Positions 20,517-31,903 of a DNA stretch of 31,934 nucleotides are shown here, in pieces. How positions within the stretch are numbered: position 1 is the first letter of the stretch; each line of letters opens with the position of its first letter. The notes below the pieces were generated by a model. The model was not told the origin of the DNA and did not search any database. It saw only the letters and a program-made list of their open reading frames with translations. Position numbers and translations under genes: made by a program. Source of the stretch: a virus; IMG/VR virus record IMGVR_UViG_3300037502_000944, positions 1-31,934 of that record. The stretch is one strand, 5' to 3'.

Positions 20517-20784
20517 GGTCGTCCCAATTCTTTTCAGTTATCTCGGGCTTCTTGGTTGGCTGGCGCTGCGGTTCGCCAGAACGCGACAGCTTGCCCTCGC
20601 CCTTCGCCTCAAACTTGAGCGACAGGTAGGTATCACCCGTTTTCTGGCTTGTTTTCTTCCAGCCCGACACGTTGAAATCCACGTTGTTAATCACGCACGA
20701 CCCACGGAAGTCGGGGCGCTTGGCGTTCTCGCCCTTGTCGTTCTTAAACAGGACGCCACGCATATTCGGGTCAAACTTATCCAC
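20500..20784 (-). CDS. DUF736-like small protein, possible ssDNA-binding partner of ERF
   Basis: 94 aa from GTG 20784, with an AAAGGAGC ribosome site six bases upstream. It overlaps the ERF stop by 8 nt. The core (RGSCVINNVDFNVSGWKK, then GDTYLSLKFEAKG) resembles the DUF736 family: strand, short loop, W-K, then YLSLKF. It has a disordered, basic/polar C-terminal tail ending in acidic DDLDTPF. The acidic tip resembles the tails of SSB proteins. Immediate coupling to an annealing protein fits a single-strand DNA-binding role, but that is inference. Confidence 0.6.
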   Translation of the reverse strand: MDKFDPNMRGVLFKNDKGENAKRPDFRGSCVINNVDFNVSGWKKTSQKTGDTYLSLKFEAKGEGKLSRSGEPQRQPTKKPEITEKNWDDLDTPF

Positions 20785-21421
20785 GGTTTTGCTCCTTTGC
20801 CATTTGAATGTACTTCTTGATCGCTGACCGCTCCTTTGCCGTCAACACATCTGCCACGGCGATATACAGGTCATGGTCAGGGTTCAGCGCCTCATGCACA
20901 GCCAACACGGCAAGAGCTATATCCTTTTCCTCGGCGTCTAGATCAAACGCGCCACGAAACTGCTGCACGAACTGGTCACGCTTGGTCTGGTCAAACTTCT
21001 TGCCCAGATCGCCACGGGGGTCGTTAGTAAACGTGCGGCCTTGGGCAGCCTCCGCGTCATCGTCAATCTGCGCCAGCCCCACGATGGCTGCGAGAGCATA
21101 GCGACGAGCGTAAGTAATGCCGCTGCCCTGCCCCTGTGGGCTGTTGTCCTTGGTCAGCACGGGCATTTGCCCTGCAATCCATTCGCCGCTGCTGTGCGCC
21201 AACGTAGTGACCAGCATCAAGCCCTGCTCGGTCATCTGCGTGGTCTGGATCACCGACAAACCGTTCGCCGCTAACTGCTTACGGCAGGCGTCCCAACACG
21301 ACGCCAGATCGGCGTACTTGGACTTAAAGAACGGGTTGCTGCTGTCTTTCAGCGCACCCGTGATGTCGGCTTGCGCCTTTGACAGCGCGGCGGCCAATGC
21401 GCCGATGGTTTCACTCTGCAT
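20777..21421 (-). CDS. erf: ERF-family single-strand annealing protein
   Basis: 214 aa. GGAG in AAAGGAGAAGAAG precedes ATG 21421. The family signature is complete: residues 29-39 NPFFKSKYADL, an LSKAQADITGALKDSSN lead-in, LAHSSGEWI (about 74-82) and GSGITYARRYAL (99-110), followed by a DDDAEAAQG stretch. ERF proteins anneal complementary single strands during phage recombination and replication. The downstream genes (DUF736-like, nuclease, NinB, YbcO nuclease) form a coherent recombination operon with it. The C-terminal 80 residues are helical and acidic or polar, as in other ERF proteins. Confidence 0.92.
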   Translation of the reverse strand: MQSETIGALAAALSKAQADITGALKDSSNPFFKSKYADLASCWDACRKQLAANGLSVIQTTQMTEQGLMLVTTLAHSSGEWIAGQMPVLTKDNSPQGQGSGITYARRYALAAIVGLAQIDDDAEAAQGRTFTNDPRGDLGKKFDQTKRDQFVQQFRGAFDLDAEEKDIALAVLAVHEALNPDHDLYIAVADVLTAKERSAIKKYIQMAKEQNRG

Positions 21422-22766: not shown

Positions 22767-23213
22767 ATGCTTTTCTATACACGCCATCTCGGTGACTACG
22801 CCCGAGATACCGGCCATCTCACGACATATGAGCATGGGGTCTACACCCTGCTTTTAGATCGCTTTTATGCCACCGAAAAACCGTTTGGCGAGCGTGAAGC
22901 GATGCAGTTATGCCGTCCTGCCAACGGACGGGAACGAGAGAGAATCCGTCGCATCCTAAACGACTTTTTCATTCTTACTGCGTCCGGCTATGTGAACGCT
23001 CGGGCCATGAAGGAAATGGAAAAAGTGCAGGAAAAACAGGCAAAAGCGAAACAGAGCGCCCAGCAGCGTTGGATGCGAACGCATAGCGAACGCAATGCGA
23101 ACGGTATGCTAACCAATAACCATAATCCAATAACCAATAACCAGAAGCCAAACGGCATCGCTAGGGTTAGCACCGCTGCTGTGTTGAGCGTGGTAGCGCG
23201 GAGGGATGAGTGA
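22767..23213 (+). CDS. DUF1376 protein (phage replication-type)
   Basis: 148 aa; GGAGA at 22758-22762 precedes ATG 22767. The DUF1376 signature is present: LFYTRHLGDYARDTGHLTTY, then HGVYTLLLDRFYATEKPF, a RIRRILNDFF strand and GYVNARAMKEMEK, followed by a basic Lys/Gln coil with AQQRWMRTH and an Asn-rich linker (MLTNNHNPITNNQKP). DUF1376 proteins occur as, or fused to, phage replication initiators. This one has no helicase-loader domain, so it may act with host DnaB-type machinery. It is the first gene of the rightward replication segment. Confidence 0.75.
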   Translation: MLFYTRHLGDYARDTGHLTTYEHGVYTLLLDRFYATEKPFGEREAMQLCRPANGRERERIRRILNDFFILTASGYVNARAMKEMEKVQEKQAKAKQSAQQRWMRTHSERNANGMLTNNHNPITNNQKPNGIARVSTAAVLSVVARRDE

Positions 23214-24586: not shown

Positions 24587-25198
24587 ATGCTGAACTTAAA
24601 CCGTAAGCGACTGTCTAGGGCTATCTGGGACACGCTGTTTGACGGATTAGAGGACTTACCGTGGCAGCGCATTGACGACCTTGAGGCGCTAGACCCCGAC
24701 CGCCAGACAGGTTCCACCAACAACGCCAGCCTGATTGCCCTGTGGGCGGTGAAACGCTATTTCCAGCCAAAGCGCGTGGTGGAAATCGGCACCTATATCG
24801 GCAAATCCACGTTTGTGCTGGCTCGGGGCGATACCGAGGTGCATACCTGCGACATGACGCACAACTTCAAGCTGCCGATCTACGCGAACGTCACGCAGTA
24901 CCACAGCAGTAGTACCGAAATGCTCGCTAAACTGGATGGAACGATAGACCACCTGCACATAGACGGTCGGCTACAGCCCGGTGATCGGGCGCACCTAGAA
25001 CGGCTGTTCCACGCCGACACTATCATCACGCTGGATGACTTTGAGGGCATAGAGAAAGGCGTCTGGAACGCTATGCAGATAAACCTGTCAAATCGGATAT
25101 TGGTTTACCCGCCAGAGAGGCAGTTGACAGAGCGTTTTGCCGTGGGTGATGCTACGACTGCAATCATCCTGCCTAACTTACGGTTAACCGCCCAATGA
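24587..25198 (+). CDS. SAM-dependent class I methyltransferase
   Basis: 203 aa with GAGGA four bases before ATG 24587. Motif I is VVEIGTYIGKST (Glu66-Ile-Gly-Thr-Tyr-Ile-Gly), followed by an acidic-ended strand VHTCDMTHN (post-I) and HIDGRL and TIITLDDFEGI, typical of Methyltransf_24-like O-methyltransferases. It lies head-to-head with a glycosyltransferase, so together they could modify a glycan. The acceptor is not identifiable. Confidence 0.75.
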   Translation: MLNLNRKRLSRAIWDTLFDGLEDLPWQRIDDLEALDPDRQTGSTNNASLIALWAVKRYFQPKRVVEIGTYIGKSTFVLARGDTEVHTCDMTHNFKLPIYANVTQYHSSSTEMLAKLDGTIDHLHIDGRLQPGDRAHLERLFHADTIITLDDFEGIEKGVWNAMQINLSNRILVYPPERQLTERFAVGDATTAIILPNLRLTAQ

Positions 25199-25563
25199 GC
25201 CATAAAGATGCCGCCGAGTTCGTAGGTGTTTTGCTGCATAGCAGCACAGCGGCTCATTACCTGCACCTCAACACCGCCAGCTACGCCGCCCACAAGGCAC
25301 TCGGTCACTACTACGAGAACATCGTGGACTTGGCCGACAAGTACGCCGAGGCGTATCAAGGGCATTACGGCATTATCCCGTTAGACGACTACCCAAACGG
25401 GTTCAAGGTGCAGAAAGACGCTGCCGCCTACGCCGACAGCCTGCTGACGTTCGTGAAGGGCATCCGAGGCGACCTGCCGAAAGACACCGACTTGCAAAAC
25501 ATCATTGACGAAATAGTGGGCGAGATCGCCGCGCTGTCGTACAAGCTGGAGCGTTTTAAGTAA
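25195..25563 (+). CDS. Ferritin/Dps-like four-helix protein (DUF5856-like)
   Basis: 122 aa; ATG overlaps the methyltransferase stop (ATGA). It is all-helical, with His-rich ferritin-like spacing in the first half: LLHSSTAAHYLHLNTASYAA, HKALGHYYENIVDLADKYAE and AYQGHYG. The second half (SLLTFVKGIRGDLPKDTDLQ) continues the helical bundle. A related phage family (DUF5856) is described as Dps-like. Likely a small metal-binding or bundle protein; whether it binds iron is unproven. Confidence 0.55.
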   Translation: MSHKDAAEFVGVLLHSSTAAHYLHLNTASYAAHKALGHYYENIVDLADKYAEAYQGHYGIIPLDDYPNGFKVQKDAAAYADSLLTFVKGIRGDLPKDTDLQNIIDEIVGEIAALSYKLERFK

Positions 25564-27528
25564 ATGGCCGCTGACCGTCAGCGCCTAGCTGCCGCACTCG
25601 CCTATGAGGAAGAACGCCGCCGCAAATTGGCGCAGGCTACGGGTCAGCTAACCGACCGACAGCGTATGGAATTGGCGCTCGCTGACGAACGCAAGCAGCG
25701 CCAGATGGCAGGTGAAACCGCCCCGACCCTTGAGGGCGAGGTGCAACGTTTGACCGGCCTGCAACCAAACATGGAACGCAGCAATATCCTGCCGTTCTAC
25801 AGCCAAGAAACGGGCCTAGTGGCCCCGCAATTTGTATATGACGCAGCCAAGGCTTTTGTAGCCCCCGGATATGCTGCCCGAGGTAAGCGTGTTGACCCTG
25901 CCGAAGCGATGAACGTGGCGGCAAACGTCATGGGCGGCTCTATCGGCGGCTCGGCGCTGGCCCCCGTGGAAGGCGTTGTCGCTGGCATGGGCGCATCGCG
26001 CAAACCGATAAAGGTGACTTATGAAAGACGAGAAGAAGGCCCATTCCTCCGAATCCGAAAGGCAGAAACGGGTGGCGGCAGCAATCAGCAAACGCAAAGA
26101 GTTGTCGGCCCGACTGGAAAAGCTCCGCAACGGACGCCCGCGAGTGGAGCTGTCGGAGGACGAACTAGCGGCGCGGTGGCGCAATCTGATGCGCCATCGT
26201 CGGTTTCAAGACGACGTTTAACACCGGCACAGGTCGCCACCCAATACACCGAAGCTGAATTCGGAACGCCGTACAAACTGCCGAAAAACCCGCCAAGCAG
26301 CCTGCAAAAACAAGCGCCCATTGGCCGTATTTTCTTGGAAGCCACCAAGGAGTCGCCGCAATACAAAGCCGCTACGCTCAAATCATACGAGCGCGTTATG
26401 CCGGACGTATTGCAAAAGGCCAAGGTTAAAAACTACGACGATTTGCTGGAAAAATCGTATCTCCAGCTTGCGAAAGAAGTTAAATCGCAATTTGATGCGC
26501 TGCCAATATCCATGTCTTATTACCGGGGCGGTGAAGGCGCGTACAAAAGCAGCAAAGAGCTGTTTGAGGACATAGATAAACGCGGGCATATGTTCGTTTA
26601 TCAGGGCGGTGACCCGCACGATTTCCTCGGCCAGACCGACCCCGACACCGGCCTGTCTTACAACGAAATGTTTAGGGCCGTTCACGACTATTTCGGCCAC
26701 GCCGTACATCGCAACCAGTTTGGCCCGGTTGGCGAAGAAACCGCATGGGCGGCGCACAGCCAAATGTTCAGCCCGCTGGCCCGCATTGCCATGAGCAGCG
26801 AAACCCGAGGGCAAAACAGCCTCGTCAATTATTCGCCGCTTAACGCAGAGTTGAAGGCGCAGATTTTAGATGCCGAAAAAGATATTGCTGAAGCCGAGCA
26901 ATATGGCTATGGCGCAGATGTCATCAAAGAGCTGCGTCAAAACCGGCAAGACTTGTTTAACGACTTTCAGTACGCCCCGCAGAAGTCGGTGGTGTTGCCT
27001 GCCGAAATGCTCCAGATTGACTACATGGGAGCTATGCCAGCCGGGTTTGAAGGGCTGATATTGCCCGACCCCGGCACCGCGACATCGCTGCCTCTGACGC
27101 ATTACAGCCAAAGCGCCTCGCTCACGCAGACCGATCCGACTCGCTACGGCACCGGCATTAAAGGGCAAGAAGCAGCGCGATTACGTCAAGCGCCAGATGT
27201 GCGCGAGCGCACTTACTTTTACACCGGCAAACCGGGATCGGTACGCCCAGAGGCAGGGTTAGGCCCGAACGTATACACCGCGCAGGGCGAAAACCTTTAC
27301 AACATGAGGCGCGACCCCGCGAAGCTCGGAGTGCTGGCCGATGTAGTCAATACCACCTCACCGCTGGCCCGCATGAACCCCGGTGGCGTTGATGATTTCC
27401 AACGCGCCAATGATTTTGAGCGCCTGATGCGAGCCTATGGCTACAGCGGGTATTACAGCCCCGAAGCCAAGGTTGCCACCGTGTTTGAACCCATGAATGT
27501 GCGACTCGCCAAGGCGTTGAGACGCTGA
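25564..27528 (+). CDS. Polyvalent-type protein: HDYFGH/ETRGQN module plus ART-like end
   Basis: 654 aa. Residues 1-75 are a charged helix. Residues about 78-150 form a module with a SGLVAP-like NILPFYSQETGLVAPQFVYD lead, then MNVAANVMGGSIGGSA, as found in phage-borne virion proteins. Residues 153-219 are low-complexity and overlap the nested frame described separately. Residues about 250-430 hold MFRAVHDYFGHAVHRNQFG (His374, Asp375, His379) and GEETAWAAHSQMF (Glu391, Glu392, His398), then SSETRGQNS (Glu413, Arg415, Gln417, Asn418). The last 140 residues start LTHYSQS (His513), contain TYFYTGK, and end in KVATVFEPMNVRL, resembling polyvalent ADP-ribosyltransferase-like ends. Its place before the terminase genes suggests virion delivery; the reactions are unknown. 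Confidence 0.68.
   Translation: MAADRQRLAAALAYEEERRRKLAQATGQLTDRQRMELALADERKQRQMAGETAPTLEGEVQRLTGLQPNMERSNILPFYSQETGLVAPQFVYDAAKAFVAPGYAARGKRVDPAEAMNVAANVMGGSIGGSALAPVEGVVAGMGASRKPIKVTYERREEGPFLRIRKAETGGGSNQQTQRVVGPTGKAPQRTPASGAVGGRTSGAVAQSDAPSSVSRRRLTPAQVATQYTEAEFGTPYKLPKNPPSSLQKQAPIGRIFLEATKESPQYKAATLKSYERVMPDVLQKAKVKNYDDLLEKSYLQLAKEVKSQFDALPISMSYYRGGEGAYKSSKELFEDIDKRGHMFVYQGGDPHDFLGQTDPDTGLSYNEMFRAVHDYFGHAVHRNQFGPVGEETAWAAHSQMFSPLARIAMSSETRGQNSLVNYSPLNAELKAQILDAEKDIAEAEQYGYGADVIKELRQNRQDLFNDFQYAPQKSVVLPAEMLQIDYMGAMPAGFEGLILPDPGTATSLPLTHYSQSASLTQTDPTRYGTGIKGQEAARLRQAPDVRERTYFYTGKPGSVRPEAGLGPNVYTAQGENLYNMRRDPAKLGVLADVVNTTSPLARMNPGGVDDFQRANDFERLMRAYGYSGYYSPEAKVATVFEPMNVRLAKALRR
26021..26221 (+). 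CDS. Nested frame of 66 codons inside the 654-aa gene
   Basis: ATG 26021 follows AAGGTGA (26011-26017) and stops at TAA 26219-26221, in the +1 frame relative to the host gene. It reads MKDEKKAHSSESERQKRVAA and then a charged coiled coil (KELSARLEKLRNGRPRVE, EDELAARWRNLMRHRR). By hand count about 68% of its third bases are G or C, against about 42% for the outer frame in the same stretch, which instead reads as Arg/Gly/Ser low complexity. It could be a true nested gene or the remnant of a separate gene fused into the outer frame by an indel. Confidence 0.5.
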   Translation: MKDEKKAHSSESERQKRVAAAISKRKELSARLEKLRNGRPRVELSEDELAARWRNLMRHRRFQDDV

Positions 27529-27567: not shown

Positions 27568-27822
27568 ATGGCACGACCTAAAGGATCGCCCAACAAGGCA
27601 ACCGCAGAGGCCAGAGAAGCAATAGCCCGTCTTGTAGACGGCAACGCCCATCGCCTTAACATCTGGCTGGACGAAATCTACGAGACGAAAGGCGCAGAAG
27701 CCGCATGGCGCTGCATGATGGATGTCATTGAATACCATGTGCCGAAGCTCGCTCGTCACGAACACACCGGCCAGAACGGCGACAAGATCAAGGTGGAAGT
27801 GACATGGATGGCTCCCGAGTAG
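27568..27822 (+). CDS. terS: Terminase small subunit candidate
   Basis: 84 aa. It begins ARPKGSPNKATAEAREAIAR, a basic DNA-binding-like start, with LNIWLDEIYETKGAEAAWRC and then EYHVPKLARHEHTG, a pattern common in phage small terminases and upstream partners of terL. It overlaps the large subunit start by 19 nt. It should recognise the packaging site. No full HTH can be shown, so the call leans on neighbourhood. Confidence 0.68.
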   Translation: MARPKGSPNKATAEAREAIARLVDGNAHRLNIWLDEIYETKGAEAAWRCMMDVIEYHVPKLARHEHTGQNGDKIKVEVTWMAPE

Positions 27823-29144
27823 TCATCCCCTACCGCCCACGAAAGGCGTTCATGCCTTTCCACAACCGGACGCAGCGGTGGGCTTGCCTAGTCGCCCATC
27901 GTCGCGCTGGTAAAACAGTCGCAGCCGTCAACGACATCATCCGAGCAGCCATCACTTACCAAGGTGAGCGCGGGTTGTTCGCCTACATCTGCCCCTTCAG
28001 ATCGCAAGCCAAGTCCGTTGCGTGGCAATATTTCCTTGAGTTCGCAGACCCCATCATTCAGAGCAAGAACGAGCAGGAGTTGCTCATTACCCTGATCAAC
28101 GGCACCCAAATACGGCTCGCTGGATCAGACAACGGCGATGCGCTCCGAGGTCTGGGACTGTCAGGGGTTTTCTGCGACGAATATGCCGACTGGAAGGTGG
28201 GCGTGTGGGGGAACGTGATTCGGCCTGCTTTGGCTGACAAGCAGGGTTGGGCCGTGTTCGCATCCACGCCGAAAGGCCACAACCACTTCTATGACATTTT
28301 CCAACTTGCCACTCGGTTCCCTAGCGAGTGGTTCCTGCTGCGCCTTCCCGCCTCAACCAGCGGGCTTCTGCCGGCGACAGAGCTAGCCGCCGCAAAGGCG
28401 CAATTATCCGACGATCAGTATTTGCAGGAAATGGAGGTTTCGTTTGAAGCCGCAATCGTCGGAGCTTTTTTCGGCAAGGAAATGCGAGAGGCAGAGCAGC
28501 AAGGGCGCATCTGCCAAGTGCCTTACGACCCGAACCTGCCTGTCTATAGCAGTTGGGATTTGGGGTATAGAGACGACACGGCGATATGGTTCTACCAGAT
28601 CGGGCGCGGGGAAATCCGCGTCATAGACTTCCACGCTGTCTCGGGTGCTGACATCTACGACATTGCAGGCACGGTGATGGCAAAGCCTTACCGCTACGCT
28701 CGCCACTACCTACCGCATGACGCCAGAGCCAAGAGCTTGCAGACTGGCAAGAGCATTATTGAGCAGCTGGCAACGCATTTGGATGTCGCCAAACTCGCTG
28801 TCGTTCCCGACATCGGCGTACAGAGCGGCATACAGGCTGTGCGTATGATTCTGCCGCGTGTGTGGTTTGACGCAGAGAAGTGCCGCGAGGGTATTGAGGC
28901 GTTGAAGCAATATCAACGCGAGTACGACGAGAATAAGAAAGCCTACAGGCAGTCACCGCGTCACGATTGGACTAGCCACCCGAGTGACGCTTTCCGTATG
29001 CTTGCGGTATCATACGCCGAACAGGCTGACAAGACCCCGACCCTTGAGCCTAAACCGCTAATCGTCGGGCCAGAGAACACCGTGACACTTAACGATATGT
29101 GGGCGGTTCACGACCGCCAAGGCTCTCGGAGGGCAAGGATATGA
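27804..29144 (+). CDS. terL: Terminase large subunit
   Basis: 446 aa. It packages DNA using ATP and cuts it with an RNase H-like nuclease. Walker A-like VAHRRAGKTVAAV (A31-T38), Walker B-like GVFCDEYAD (Asp125-Glu126), coupling motif STPKGHNHFYD, nuclease SWDLGYRDDTAIW (Asp252) and HPSDAFRM (Asp395) are all in place. The start at ATG 27804 lies inside the small subunit gene. The length is normal for podoviral TerL. The stop overlaps the next start (ATGA). Confidence 0.92.
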   Translation: MDGSRVVIPYRPRKAFMPFHNRTQRWACLVAHRRAGKTVAAVNDIIRAAITYQGERGLFAYICPFRSQAKSVAWQYFLEFADPIIQSKNEQELLITLINGTQIRLAGSDNGDALRGLGLSGVFCDEYADWKVGVWGNVIRPALADKQGWAVFASTPKGHNHFYDIFQLATRFPSEWFLLRLPASTSGLLPATELAAAKAQLSDDQYLQEMEVSFEAAIVGAFFGKEMREAEQQGRICQVPYDPNLPVYSSWDLGYRDDTAIWFYQIGRGEIRVIDFHAVSGADIYDIAGTVMAKPYRYARHYLPHDARAKSLQTGKSIIEQLATHLDVAKLAVVPDIGVQSGIQAVRMILPRVWFDAEKCREGIEALKQYQREYDENKKAYRQSPRHDWTSHPSDAFRMLAVSYAEQADKTPTLEPKPLIVGPENTVTLNDMWAVHDRQGSRRARI

Positions 29145-29589: not shown

Positions 29590-29879
29590 GCGCAGCGTGG
29601 CAGCGTAGCGAGGGCAAGAACCCGAAGGGCGGTCTAAACGCCAAGGGTCGCGCCTCTTACAAAGCCGAGACGGGTGGCACGTTGAAGCCCCCGGTAAAGA
29701 AGGGTGACAACCCGCGCCGCGCCTCGTTCCTCGCCCGCATGGGCAATATGCCGGGGCCGATGGAAAAGAACGGTAAGCCCACGCGCCTTGCCCTCGCCCT
29801 CAAGGCTTGGGGTGCGAGCAGTAAAGAGGACGCCAAGGCCAAGGCCCGAGCAATTAGCGCCCGTAACAAGGGGAAATGA
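29586..29879 (+). CDS. DUF6321-like conserved phage protein (97 aa)
   Basis: A GTG start at 29586 overlaps the previous stop as GTGA. The family pattern is clear: AAWQRSEGKNPKGGLNAKGR, then ETGGTLKPPV, RRASFLARMGNMPGPM and KPTRLALALKAWG. It is basic and mostly disordered. Widely carried by tailed phages, often near terminase and portal; the function is unknown. Its stop overlaps the portal start. Confidence 0.75.
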   Translation: MSAAWQRSEGKNPKGGLNAKGRASYKAETGGTLKPPVKKGDNPRRASFLARMGNMPGPMEKNGKPTRLALALKAWGASSKEDAKAKARAISARNKGK

Positions 29880-31903
29880 AGATGGACGTACTGGTACAGC
29901 CGGAACTCAACAAGTACCTCCGCATTATCGGGCAGTACGACAACGAATTTGCCAAGTGGACGGCGCGAACCAAGAAGATCATCAAGCGTTACCGCGACGA
30001 CACCCGTGGGCAGACGCTGACTGAATCTGCAAAGTTCAACATCCTTTGGAGCAACGTGCAGACGCTCAAACCTGCCGTGTACGCCAAGCTCCCGAAGGCC
30101 GACATCAGCCGCCGCTTTGGTGACAACGACCCCGTTGGCCGCGTGGCAGGGCAGCTGCTAGAGCGAGCCATTGATTTTGAGATTGAGCATTATTCTGACT
30201 ACCGCTCCACGATGGCGTATTGCGTAGAGGATCGCTTCCTCGGTGGACGCGGCACGGCGTGGGTACGGTACGAGCCGCACACCGCACCGATTGGCATTGA
30301 GGACGATGGCGTATCGGTCACCCCGAACATTGAGCAGGGTGAGGGTGCGCCGCCTGCGTTAGAGCAGATTGAGTACGAGTGCGCCCCGGTGGATTACGTC
30401 CATTGGCGCGACTTTGGTCACAGCACCGCCCGCACATGGGAAGAAGTTGGACAGGTGTGGCGCTGGGTCTATATGACCCGTGAGGCTCTCGTAGAGCGGT
30501 TTGGCGAGGAAGTAGCCGCCAAGATACCGCTAGACCAAGGCCCAGAGCCGCTGAACGCCTACAACGAAAACAAGCGCCTCTATAACCGCGCCAAGATTTG
30601 TGAACTTTGGGACAAGGAAACCCAGAAGGTTTATTGGTTCTCCAAGGGGATGCCGCAGATTATTGACGTACGCGACGATCCGCTCGGACTTGAGGGATTC
30701 TTCCCCTGCCCGCGCCCGCTGTACGCCACGACGACCAGCGATACGCTCGTCCCGGTTCCCGACTTCGTGCTGTACCAAGATCAGGCGATGGAGTTGGACA
30801 TTCTCTCCGACCGCATTGACGGCTTGGTGAAATCGCTGCGTGTACGTGGCGTGTACGACGCCAGCCAGCCTGCGCTGCAACGCTTGATGACGGAGGGTGA
30901 TAACAATGCTCTCATTCCAGTTGATAAGTGGATGGCTTTCAGCGAAAAAGGCGGCCTTAAAGGCAGCATTGACCTGCTTCCGCTGGACACGCTCGCCAAC
31001 GCCCTCCTCCAATGCTACCGAGCGCGAGAGGACATCAAAGCCCAAATCTACGAAATCACGGGTATTGCGGACATTATCCGTGGTGTCTCGGCAGCCTCCG
31101 AAACTGCCACGGCGCAGCAGATCAAAGGCCAGTACGCAGGATTAAGACTGCGCTCCATGCAGGAGGAGGTGGCGATGTTTGCCGCCGAACTCATCCGGCT
31201 GAAGGCGCAGGTCATGTGTATGCACTACCAGCCAGAGACAATTCTGGCCTACGCCGCTGCCAACCAGATGACGCCAGCGGATCAACAGTTGATCCCGCAG
31301 GCGCTAGAACTGATCCGCAACAAGCCGCTGCGTAACTTCCGCGTAGACATTGCCTCTGACTCGCTTGTGATGCTGGACGAGAACCAGAACAAGCAGGATC
31401 GGCTGCAATTCCTACAGGCGTTTGGTGGTTTCCTCGCGCAGGCGCTCCCGGTCGGTCAGGCGTCACCCGAAATGGTGCCGATGATGATGGAGTTGCTGCG
31501 CTTTGGTATGCAGGCGTTCAAGGCTGCCCGTCCGATTGAGGGTCAGATTGACGCCACGTTGCAGCAGTTGCAGCAGGCCGCCATGCAGCAGCAGCCCGAT
31601 GGCGAGCAACAGGGCAAGCAGGCCGAGTTGCAGCAAAAGGGTCAGATGGAGCAGGGCCGTATGCAGATGGAGGCGGCGCTACAGCAGGCCAAACTCCAGC
31701 AGCAGATGCAGATGGAGCAGCTCAAGAACCAGACCAAGATGGCGATGGAGCAGCAAAAGCAGCAGTTTGAGGCGCAGTTGGAGGCGATGAAGCTGCAAAG
31801 CCAGCAGGAAGCCGCCAAGTACAAGGCCGACATGGACGCCCAGACGCGCTTAATCATCGCGCAGATGAACAAAACTTTACCAACGCTACCCGTTAATCAA
31901 TGA
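29876..31903 (+). CDS. Portal protein (podovirus type)
   Basis: 675 aa. It forms the dodecameric ring through which DNA enters and leaves. The long helical/beta clip body starts with a coil (EFAKWTARTKKIIKRYRDDT), contains NILWSNVQTLKPAVYAKLPK, and the wing and stem core includes YEITGIADIIRGVSAASETA, a strong portal signature. The last 120 residues are a Gln/Met/Lys coiled coil (QQKGQMEQGRMQMEAALQQA), like the long barrel of P22 portal. ATG 29876 overlaps the previous stop, and a second ATG lies at 29882. The stop overlaps the next gene (ATGA). Confidence 0.88.
   Translation: MKMDVLVQPELNKYLRIIGQYDNEFAKWTARTKKIIKRYRDDTRGQTLTESAKFNILWSNVQTLKPAVYAKLPKADISRRFGDNDPVGRVAGQLLERAIDFEIEHYSDYRSTMAYCVEDRFLGGRGTAWVRYEPHTAPIGIEDDGVSVTPNIEQGEGAPPALEQIEYECAPVDYVHWRDFGHSTARTWEEVGQVWRWVYMTREALVERFGEEVAAKIPLDQGPEPLNAYNENKRLYNRAKICELWDKETQKVYWFSKGMPQIIDVRDDPLGLEGFFPCPRPLYATTTSDTLVPVPDFVLYQDQAMELDILSDRIDGLVKSLRVRGVYDASQPALQRLMTEGDNNALIPVDKWMAFSEKGGLKGSIDLLPLDTLANALLQCYRAREDIKAQIYEITGIADIIRGVSAASETATAQQIKGQYAGLRLRSMQEEVAMFAAELIRLKAQVMCMHYQPETILAYAAANQMTPADQQLIPQALELIRNKPLRNFRVDIASDSLVMLDENQNKQDRLQFLQAFGGFLAQALPVGQASPEMVPMMMELLRFGMQAFKAARPIEGQIDATLQQLQQAAMQQQPDGEQQGKQAELQQKGQMEQGRMQMEAALQQAKLQQQMQMEQLKNQTKMAMEQQKQQFEAQLEAMKLQSQQEAAKYKADMDAQTRLIIAQMNKTLPTLPVNQ

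Follow-up and report, generated by a model that had tools for sequence, protein, structure and literature searches.

Residues ~230-490 of protein P0001 constitute a compact, independently evolving domain, referred to here as the HDxxGH module. We tentatively consider this module a metal-dependent enzyme acting on an S-adenosyl/homocysteine metabolite, which the phage would use against defences early in infection. The central 260-residue module would thereby belong to an uncharacterised family of metal-dependent enzymes. This enzyme-like family, which is absent from Pfam, NCBIfam, and PDB, has now been named, delimited, and aligned. Its connection with S-adenosyl chemistry is new in the present analysis.

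P0001 is encoded in the window, i.e., the whole stretch of DNA that was analysed, a virus record of 31,934 bases. The open reading frame (ORF) at 25564–27528 on the plus strand is intact, and its translation gives a multi-domain protein of 654 aa, as an earlier interpretation made without database searches (the sequence-only reading) had stated. Relatives spanning the whole or nearly the whole protein were found in 17 viral contigs, with 78-96% identity. The immediately upstream gene (25195–25563, +) matches DUF5856 in Pfam and phrog_858 in PHROGs, and it is preceded by a gene for a class I methyltransferase-like protein (24587–25198, +; PF13578, E 3.9e-7). Downstream, one small gene separates the P0001 ORF from the gene of the terminase large subunit (27804–29144, +; phrog_2, 9.6e-31, and phrog_2472), and the portal protein is encoded at 29876–31903 (+; phrog_12082, 3e-187). 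The proximity of the terminase and portal genes is only suggestive of P0001 being injected with the DNA. The same virus also encodes an Erf-like ssDNA annealing protein and a primosomal-type protein at window positions 20777–21421 and 22767–23213.

The module occupies positions 26251–27033 (+) and was delimited as a predicted metal-dependent enzyme domain with the use of phrog_3170, the alignment, the AlphaFold2 model, and the homologs. In an alignment of 108 relatives, extending down to 25% identity, the residues Y299, N367, F370, R371, H374, D375, H379, G390, E391, H398, E413, and Q417 are invariant, so the motif residues are not there by chance. The core motif helix N367-x2-F-R371-A-V-H374-D375-Y-F-G-H379 is encoded at 26662–26700 (+), and its N, F, R, H, D, and H are the same in all the sequences. 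The helix G390-E391-E-T-A-W-A-A-H398 (26731–26757, +) contributes G390, E391, and H398. In the helix E413-T-R-G-Q417-N (26800–26817, +), the invariant E413 and Q417 are accompanied by T414 in 102, R415 in 99, and G416 in 95 of the 108 sequences. The pair Q473-K474 (26980–26985, +) is nearly invariant (102/108 and 106/108, respectively). A helical hairpin insertion, aa 424-466 (26833–26961, +; model helices 206-227 and 232-247), was recognized from the alignment and the AlphaFold2 model; it is present in this phage group and missing from the compact members. The motif itself reads HDxxGH in 101 modules and HDxxAH in the other 7, with the Asp invariant. HDxxAH is likewise seen in actinobacterial plasmid-type proteins at L176:2999-4579 (with L175-L190) and L259:8197-9600; proteins of the L176 type and L259 have an N-terminal domain with weak S-AdoMet lyase matches (0.0089 and 0.073).

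The positions given for H374-D-Y-F-G-H379, E391/E392, H398, and E413 in the sequence-only reading were correct, and E392 is not among the invariant positions of the alignment. Among seven close relatives, the dN/dS values of the module (residues 230-490) were mostly 0.04-0.14, compared with 0.15-0.33 for the faster-evolving N-terminal part and 0.01-0.10 for the C-terminal part. The invariant residues and the purifying selection bear out the earlier impression of a conserved module with a putative metal-binding active site. Judging from residue invariance and helix order, H374, H379, and E413, possibly together with E391/H398, may hold a metal. D375 could then serve as a base or a second-shell ligand, and R371/Q417/K474 would hold a small-molecule substrate.

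The structure of residues 220-500 was predicted by AlphaFold2 with 108 sequences (pLDDT 94.7, pTM 0.90), and that of a compact Micromonospora protein with 83 sequences (pLDDT 90.2, pTM 0.88). The P0001 model is mostly helical. H374, D375, and H379 are located in the helix 366-380, E391 and H398 in the helix 388-399, and E413 and Q417 in the helix 404-423. As three successive helices carry them, the conserved His and Glu residues are predicted to be ordered and not scattered over the fold; scatter is what the sequence-only reading had regarded as speaking against it. Single helix faces hold E391-H398 (i, i+7), E413-Q417 (i, i+4), N367-R371-H374 (i, i+4, i+7), and E305-Q309 (i, i+4). This spacing, worked out arithmetically from the helices of the model and not from inter-residue distances, fits with a shared pocket.

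The search of a viral structure library gave 19 matches at E<=0.001, all of them to phage proteins that carried either no name or names such as ART-PolyVal-like, large polyvalent protein associated, head morphogenesis, and NAT_SF. Further small phage proteins were matched at a probability of 0.99-1.00. In the PDB search by Foldseek, aromatic amino acid hydroxylases ranked first for both models (E 0.035 and 0.83), and the top rows did not superpose (TM 0.12-0.16, rmsd 17-18 A). The VIA rows obtained for the P0001 model cover only the hairpin insertion, and VIA lists selecase alone for the compact model (Z 2.3 over 92 residues, with rmsd 5.4 A). The structure prediction proposed earlier for this region gave a confident model, and the fold search that was to go with it gave no superposable PDB match by Foldseek or VIA. 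A weak or absent fold match is no proof of a new fold.

The regions flanking the module are distinct domains, neither of which has a Pfam match. The N-terminal part, aa 1-229 (25564–26250, +), consists of a charged helical start, an ILPF..GLVAP.. segment, and a low-complexity linker. It had been taken for a phage-virion module; it has no Pfam match above the threshold and no match in the phage records, and its conservation does not extend beyond near relatives of this virus, which does not support that assignment. The C-terminal domain, aa 503-654 (27070–27525, +), has the pattern H-Y-S ... YGTGIKGQE..RL ... YFY ... E.GLG ... GY.G, and a nine-sequence alignment revealed 18 invariant positions, including His and Tyr. 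It represents a small phage family characterized by an invariant H, YGTG.KG.E..RL, and a GY.G-type end. Members of this family are found at window positions 27070–27525 and in L226, L229-L232, L204, and L205. The ADP-ribosyltransferase-like nature proposed for this end found no support: the region has no Pfam match, and a profile comparison with an alignment of 38 ART hits (ART-PolyVal) gave a probability of 0.4%. Furthermore, in L232 a domain of the C-terminal type occurs together with the beginning of an ART-PolyVal domain, so these are distinct families. The polyvalent setting suggested for the protein held up, since 21 of the 79 related viral ORFs encode an ART-PolyVal domain along with the module.

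No match to P0001 or to the bacterial members was found in sequence searches of Pfam, NCBIfam, PADLOC, or PDB, and a text search of the accessible literature did not find the motif strings searched. PHROGs (v4) lists the module as phrog_3170 (unknown function), which matches residues 359-438 (7.7e-16). The claim that the family is undescribed is in agreement with these results. The search of phage records gave 202 matches, including two to the C-terminal domain only; they come mostly from Bxz1-like mycobacteriophages, and also from Gordonia, Rhodococcus, Streptomyces, and cyanobacterial phages. At least 580 module stretches were found in viral contigs among the first 600 pattern matches listed. 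Of 104 places matched in bacterial and archaeal genomes, 80 were kept, and four actinobacterial plasmids also carry the module. On scattered bacterial chromosomes (Aquimarina, Enterovibrio, Ruegeria, Micromonospora, and others), it often occurs as a single-domain protein of 220-310 aa, and in Streptomyces phage Dagobah its version is 188 aa long. The boundaries of the module are therefore fixed by its standalone copies. Bacterial copies are rare, as among 296 genomes of one phylum, that of Aquimarina (L118), the module was found in the starting genome only.

The genes found next to the bacterial copies point to S-adenosyl chemistry. An SahH-like NAD-binding protein (PF00670) is encoded beside the module gene or one gene off in 11 loci (L116-L118, L120-L126, and L132), which are interrelated and should not be taken for 11 separate events; they belong to Bacteroidota, Gamma- and Alphaproteobacteria. 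This neighbour is about 350-410 aa long and 43-64% identical between loci, and its best PDB relatives are adenosylhomocysteinases (2.3e-10). It is not the housekeeping copy, because a standard SahH is encoded separately in 7 of 8 genomes of this kind that were checked. A DUF3293 gene is also present in 10 of the 11 loci. In two loci of the BD1-7 genome (L125/L126), the module and DUF3293 form a fusion, and in L113 one long protein contains DUF3293, the module, and ART-PolyVal. The trio of the SahH-like protein, the HDxxGH module protein, and DUF3293 can be seen at L116:2805-5139, L118:2724-5044, L122:2727-5066, and L117:3803-6167; to our knowledge, it does not correspond to any described system. 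A relationship of DUF3293 to SAM lyases is a weak lead: the Pfam matches (E 0.0021 to 0.12) were below the curated cut-off, T3-type SAMases were matched at 0.6% by profile comparison, and the PDB search provided no backing.

In another three loci (L171, L180, and L191), the module stands beside AdoHcyase (L171 and L180), UbiE-type methyltransferases, Cys/Met PLP enzymes, a class V aminotransferase, or a homocysteine S-methyltransferase. Possible biosynthetic clusters with the module extend over L171:414-7803, L180:3863-7764, and L191:130-4621. In two Nocardiopsis loci (L174 and L182), its neighbour is adenosine deaminase. Assuming 1-2 AdoHcyase-type genes per 5 Mb, we roughly estimated that one would be met by chance in an 8.5-kb stretch about 3 times in 1000. 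AdoHcyase-type neighbours were found in 13 of the 80 genome loci, which is far above chance even when relatedness is allowed for.

A different environment was found in about 25 Micromonosporaceae loci, where the standalone module gene is flanked on one side by the gene of an N6 DNA methyltransferase and on the other by that of a UvrD/GajB-like helicase, after which comes Cas3. A CRISPR array with a 61-base period lies alongside in most of the loci scanned. These defence islands are exemplified by L130:1-8402 and about 24 others (L133, L137, L141, L143, L156-L158, L168-L170), and the arrangement may simply reflect synteny inside a single family. On a Microbacterium plasmid, the module is located near genes for an ArdC-like protein, an HNH endonuclease, and a DNA methyltransferase.

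The family of Pseudomonas phage LKA1 ORF7, found in T7-like Pseudomonas phages and comprising 123 phage records, probably consists of remote relatives of the module. It shares with the module the order N..FR..HD.GH, E, [DE]T..Q[NS], QK, and a Foldseek probability of 0.99. In the five aligned members, N..FR.FHD.GH, E, and DT..QS follow each other as in the module, and QK is present in four of them. The LKA1-type proteins differ from the module in being shorter (about 155-190 aa), in having one residue fewer between the histidines, and in the replacement of H398 by Gln. The structural link is better than the profile link, as the profile match of 36% is weak and largely motif-driven. The genes of this family are early ones located ahead of the RNA polymerase; the gene is the first one in Keila and lies at the left end in phi15 and Kurepalu-2; in the corresponding early region, T3 carries its SAMase. 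Loci of this family are L262:606-1088, L263:1329-1820, L264:1425-1898, and L203:3662-4228.

Based on the gene neighbourhoods, the substrate of the module would be SAM, SAH, or a SAM-derived compound. The phage module would act early in infection, within a virion-borne polypeptide, and by removing or changing the metabolite it would weaken a methylation-dependent or nucleotide-signalling defence. We infer this early counter-defence use because the setting is polyvalent, some module genes have neighbours typical of defence islands, and the LKA1-type genes lie early. A bolder version, which we regard as rather doubtful, is that the fold of the module is new and that it represents a novel class of metal-dependent enzymes, which degrade or rebuild S-adenosyl thioether metabolites. 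Bacteria would employ it in a small pathway with the SahH paralogue and DUF3293. In phages and plasmids, as part of polyvalent proteins or as an early gene, it would counter defence that depends on methylation or SAM-AMP.

The conserved residues could alternatively be those of a mononuclear non-heme iron oxygenase with a 2-His-1-Glu centre (H374, H379, E413), perhaps pterin-dependent, which we consider unlikely. Aromatic amino acid hydroxylases (PF00351) resemble the module in the HDxFGH motif, in the order of His, His, and Glu, and in the nearby elements (strand, helix, strand, HDxxGH helix, helix, Glu helix). The string HDVFGH is identical in module members and in bacterial phenylalanine hydroxylases, which contain FHDVFGH, and the hydroxylases were the top-ranked Foldseek rows for both models. 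However, these rows fail to superpose and none appears in the VIA lists, the other invariant residues differ, and no pterin-pathway neighbours were found among the genes examined. In 14 genomes or records, PF00351 had no match to the module gene at E<=10, although the canonical members were detected there. The profile comparison of hydroxylases with the module gave a probability of 36-42%. When the motif columns alone were shuffled, the score fell from 35 to 15-17; with all columns but the motif shuffled it was 31-38, and 42 unrelated neighbour families used as a control scored at most 21. The column-shuffling controls thus revealed that the profile signal comes from the motif alone. Homology to aromatic hydroxylases was therefore dropped, and the caution of the sequence-only reading about the biopterin-dependent enzymes was justified, as the resemblance is confined to the HDxFGH motif. 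A similar 2-His-1-Glu centre in the module is possible.

It is somewhat less probable again that the module has a non-catalytic role in the virion, either structural or in binding. Rhodococcus phage E3 gp205 is annotated in its record as a 'structural protein', and in mycobacteriophages the copies are found in late structural regions. The single-domain bacterial copies, which keep all the invariant polar residues outside the phage context, count against a merely structural role, and the LKA1 relatives are early genes. We consider it quite improbable that the module is an aberrant zincin-type metallopeptidase, with HDxxGH in place of HExxH/HExxxH and a Glu on the following helix, processing the polyvalent polypeptide or a host protein. 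The MPTases of polyvalent proteins do have an HEXXXH form with the Glu on the next helix, according to Iyer et al. 2017 (PMC5512222). The order of helix, strand, active helix, and Glu helix is zincin-like, and besides the selecase row of VIA, BepA was found by Foldseek (TM 0.28). Nevertheless, the scores (Z 2.3, E 8.9) do not rise above noise, there is no peptidase Pfam match, and all 108 modules have an invariant Asp at the position of the zincin Glu. The invariant polar residues also far outnumber what a peptidase needs, and the standalone bacterial copies occur among metabolic, not proteolytic, genes. Least probable of all seems a phosphohydrolase of the HD-domain type with nucleotides or signalling nucleotides as substrates. 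The HDxGH of the LKA1-family members resembles that of HD-domain enzymes, and the module is located in CRISPR islands. On the other hand, no HD structure appeared among the Foldseek rows listed, though PDB has many, no HD Pfam match was obtained, and the upstream first His is missing from the conserved residues of the module.

Among known families, phrog_3170 is very probably the same as the module family; it is a phage-only cluster with no function assigned and does not cover the members from bacteria and plasmids. In phages and conjugative elements, polyvalent proteins combine several unrelated domains per chain (Iyer et al. 2017, PMC5512222); a description of the module was not found in the accessible part of that paper. 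P0001 is like them in its multi-domain chain, in the ART-PolyVal domains in the ORFs of module relatives, and in its late-gene position, and differs in having no recognised second enzymatic domain. With phage SAM lyases (T3 0.3, PF23780), the proposed enzyme of S-adenosyl/homocysteine chemistry shares a functional analogy only, through the early position of the LKA1-type relatives and the SAM-linked neighbours. The sequence and the predicted fold are unrelated: PF23780, a SAM lyase with a PII-like fold, gave no match to P0001 at E<=10, the module model is mostly helical, and the weak SAM lyase matches come from the neighbour DUF3293. The context of the module makes cheap and concrete testing possible, with SAM/SAH-type substrates and metal content. 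Restriction-modification and BREX depend on the methyl-donor system, and if our preferred reading is true, phages would have a second route to attack that system, unrelated to SAM lyase.
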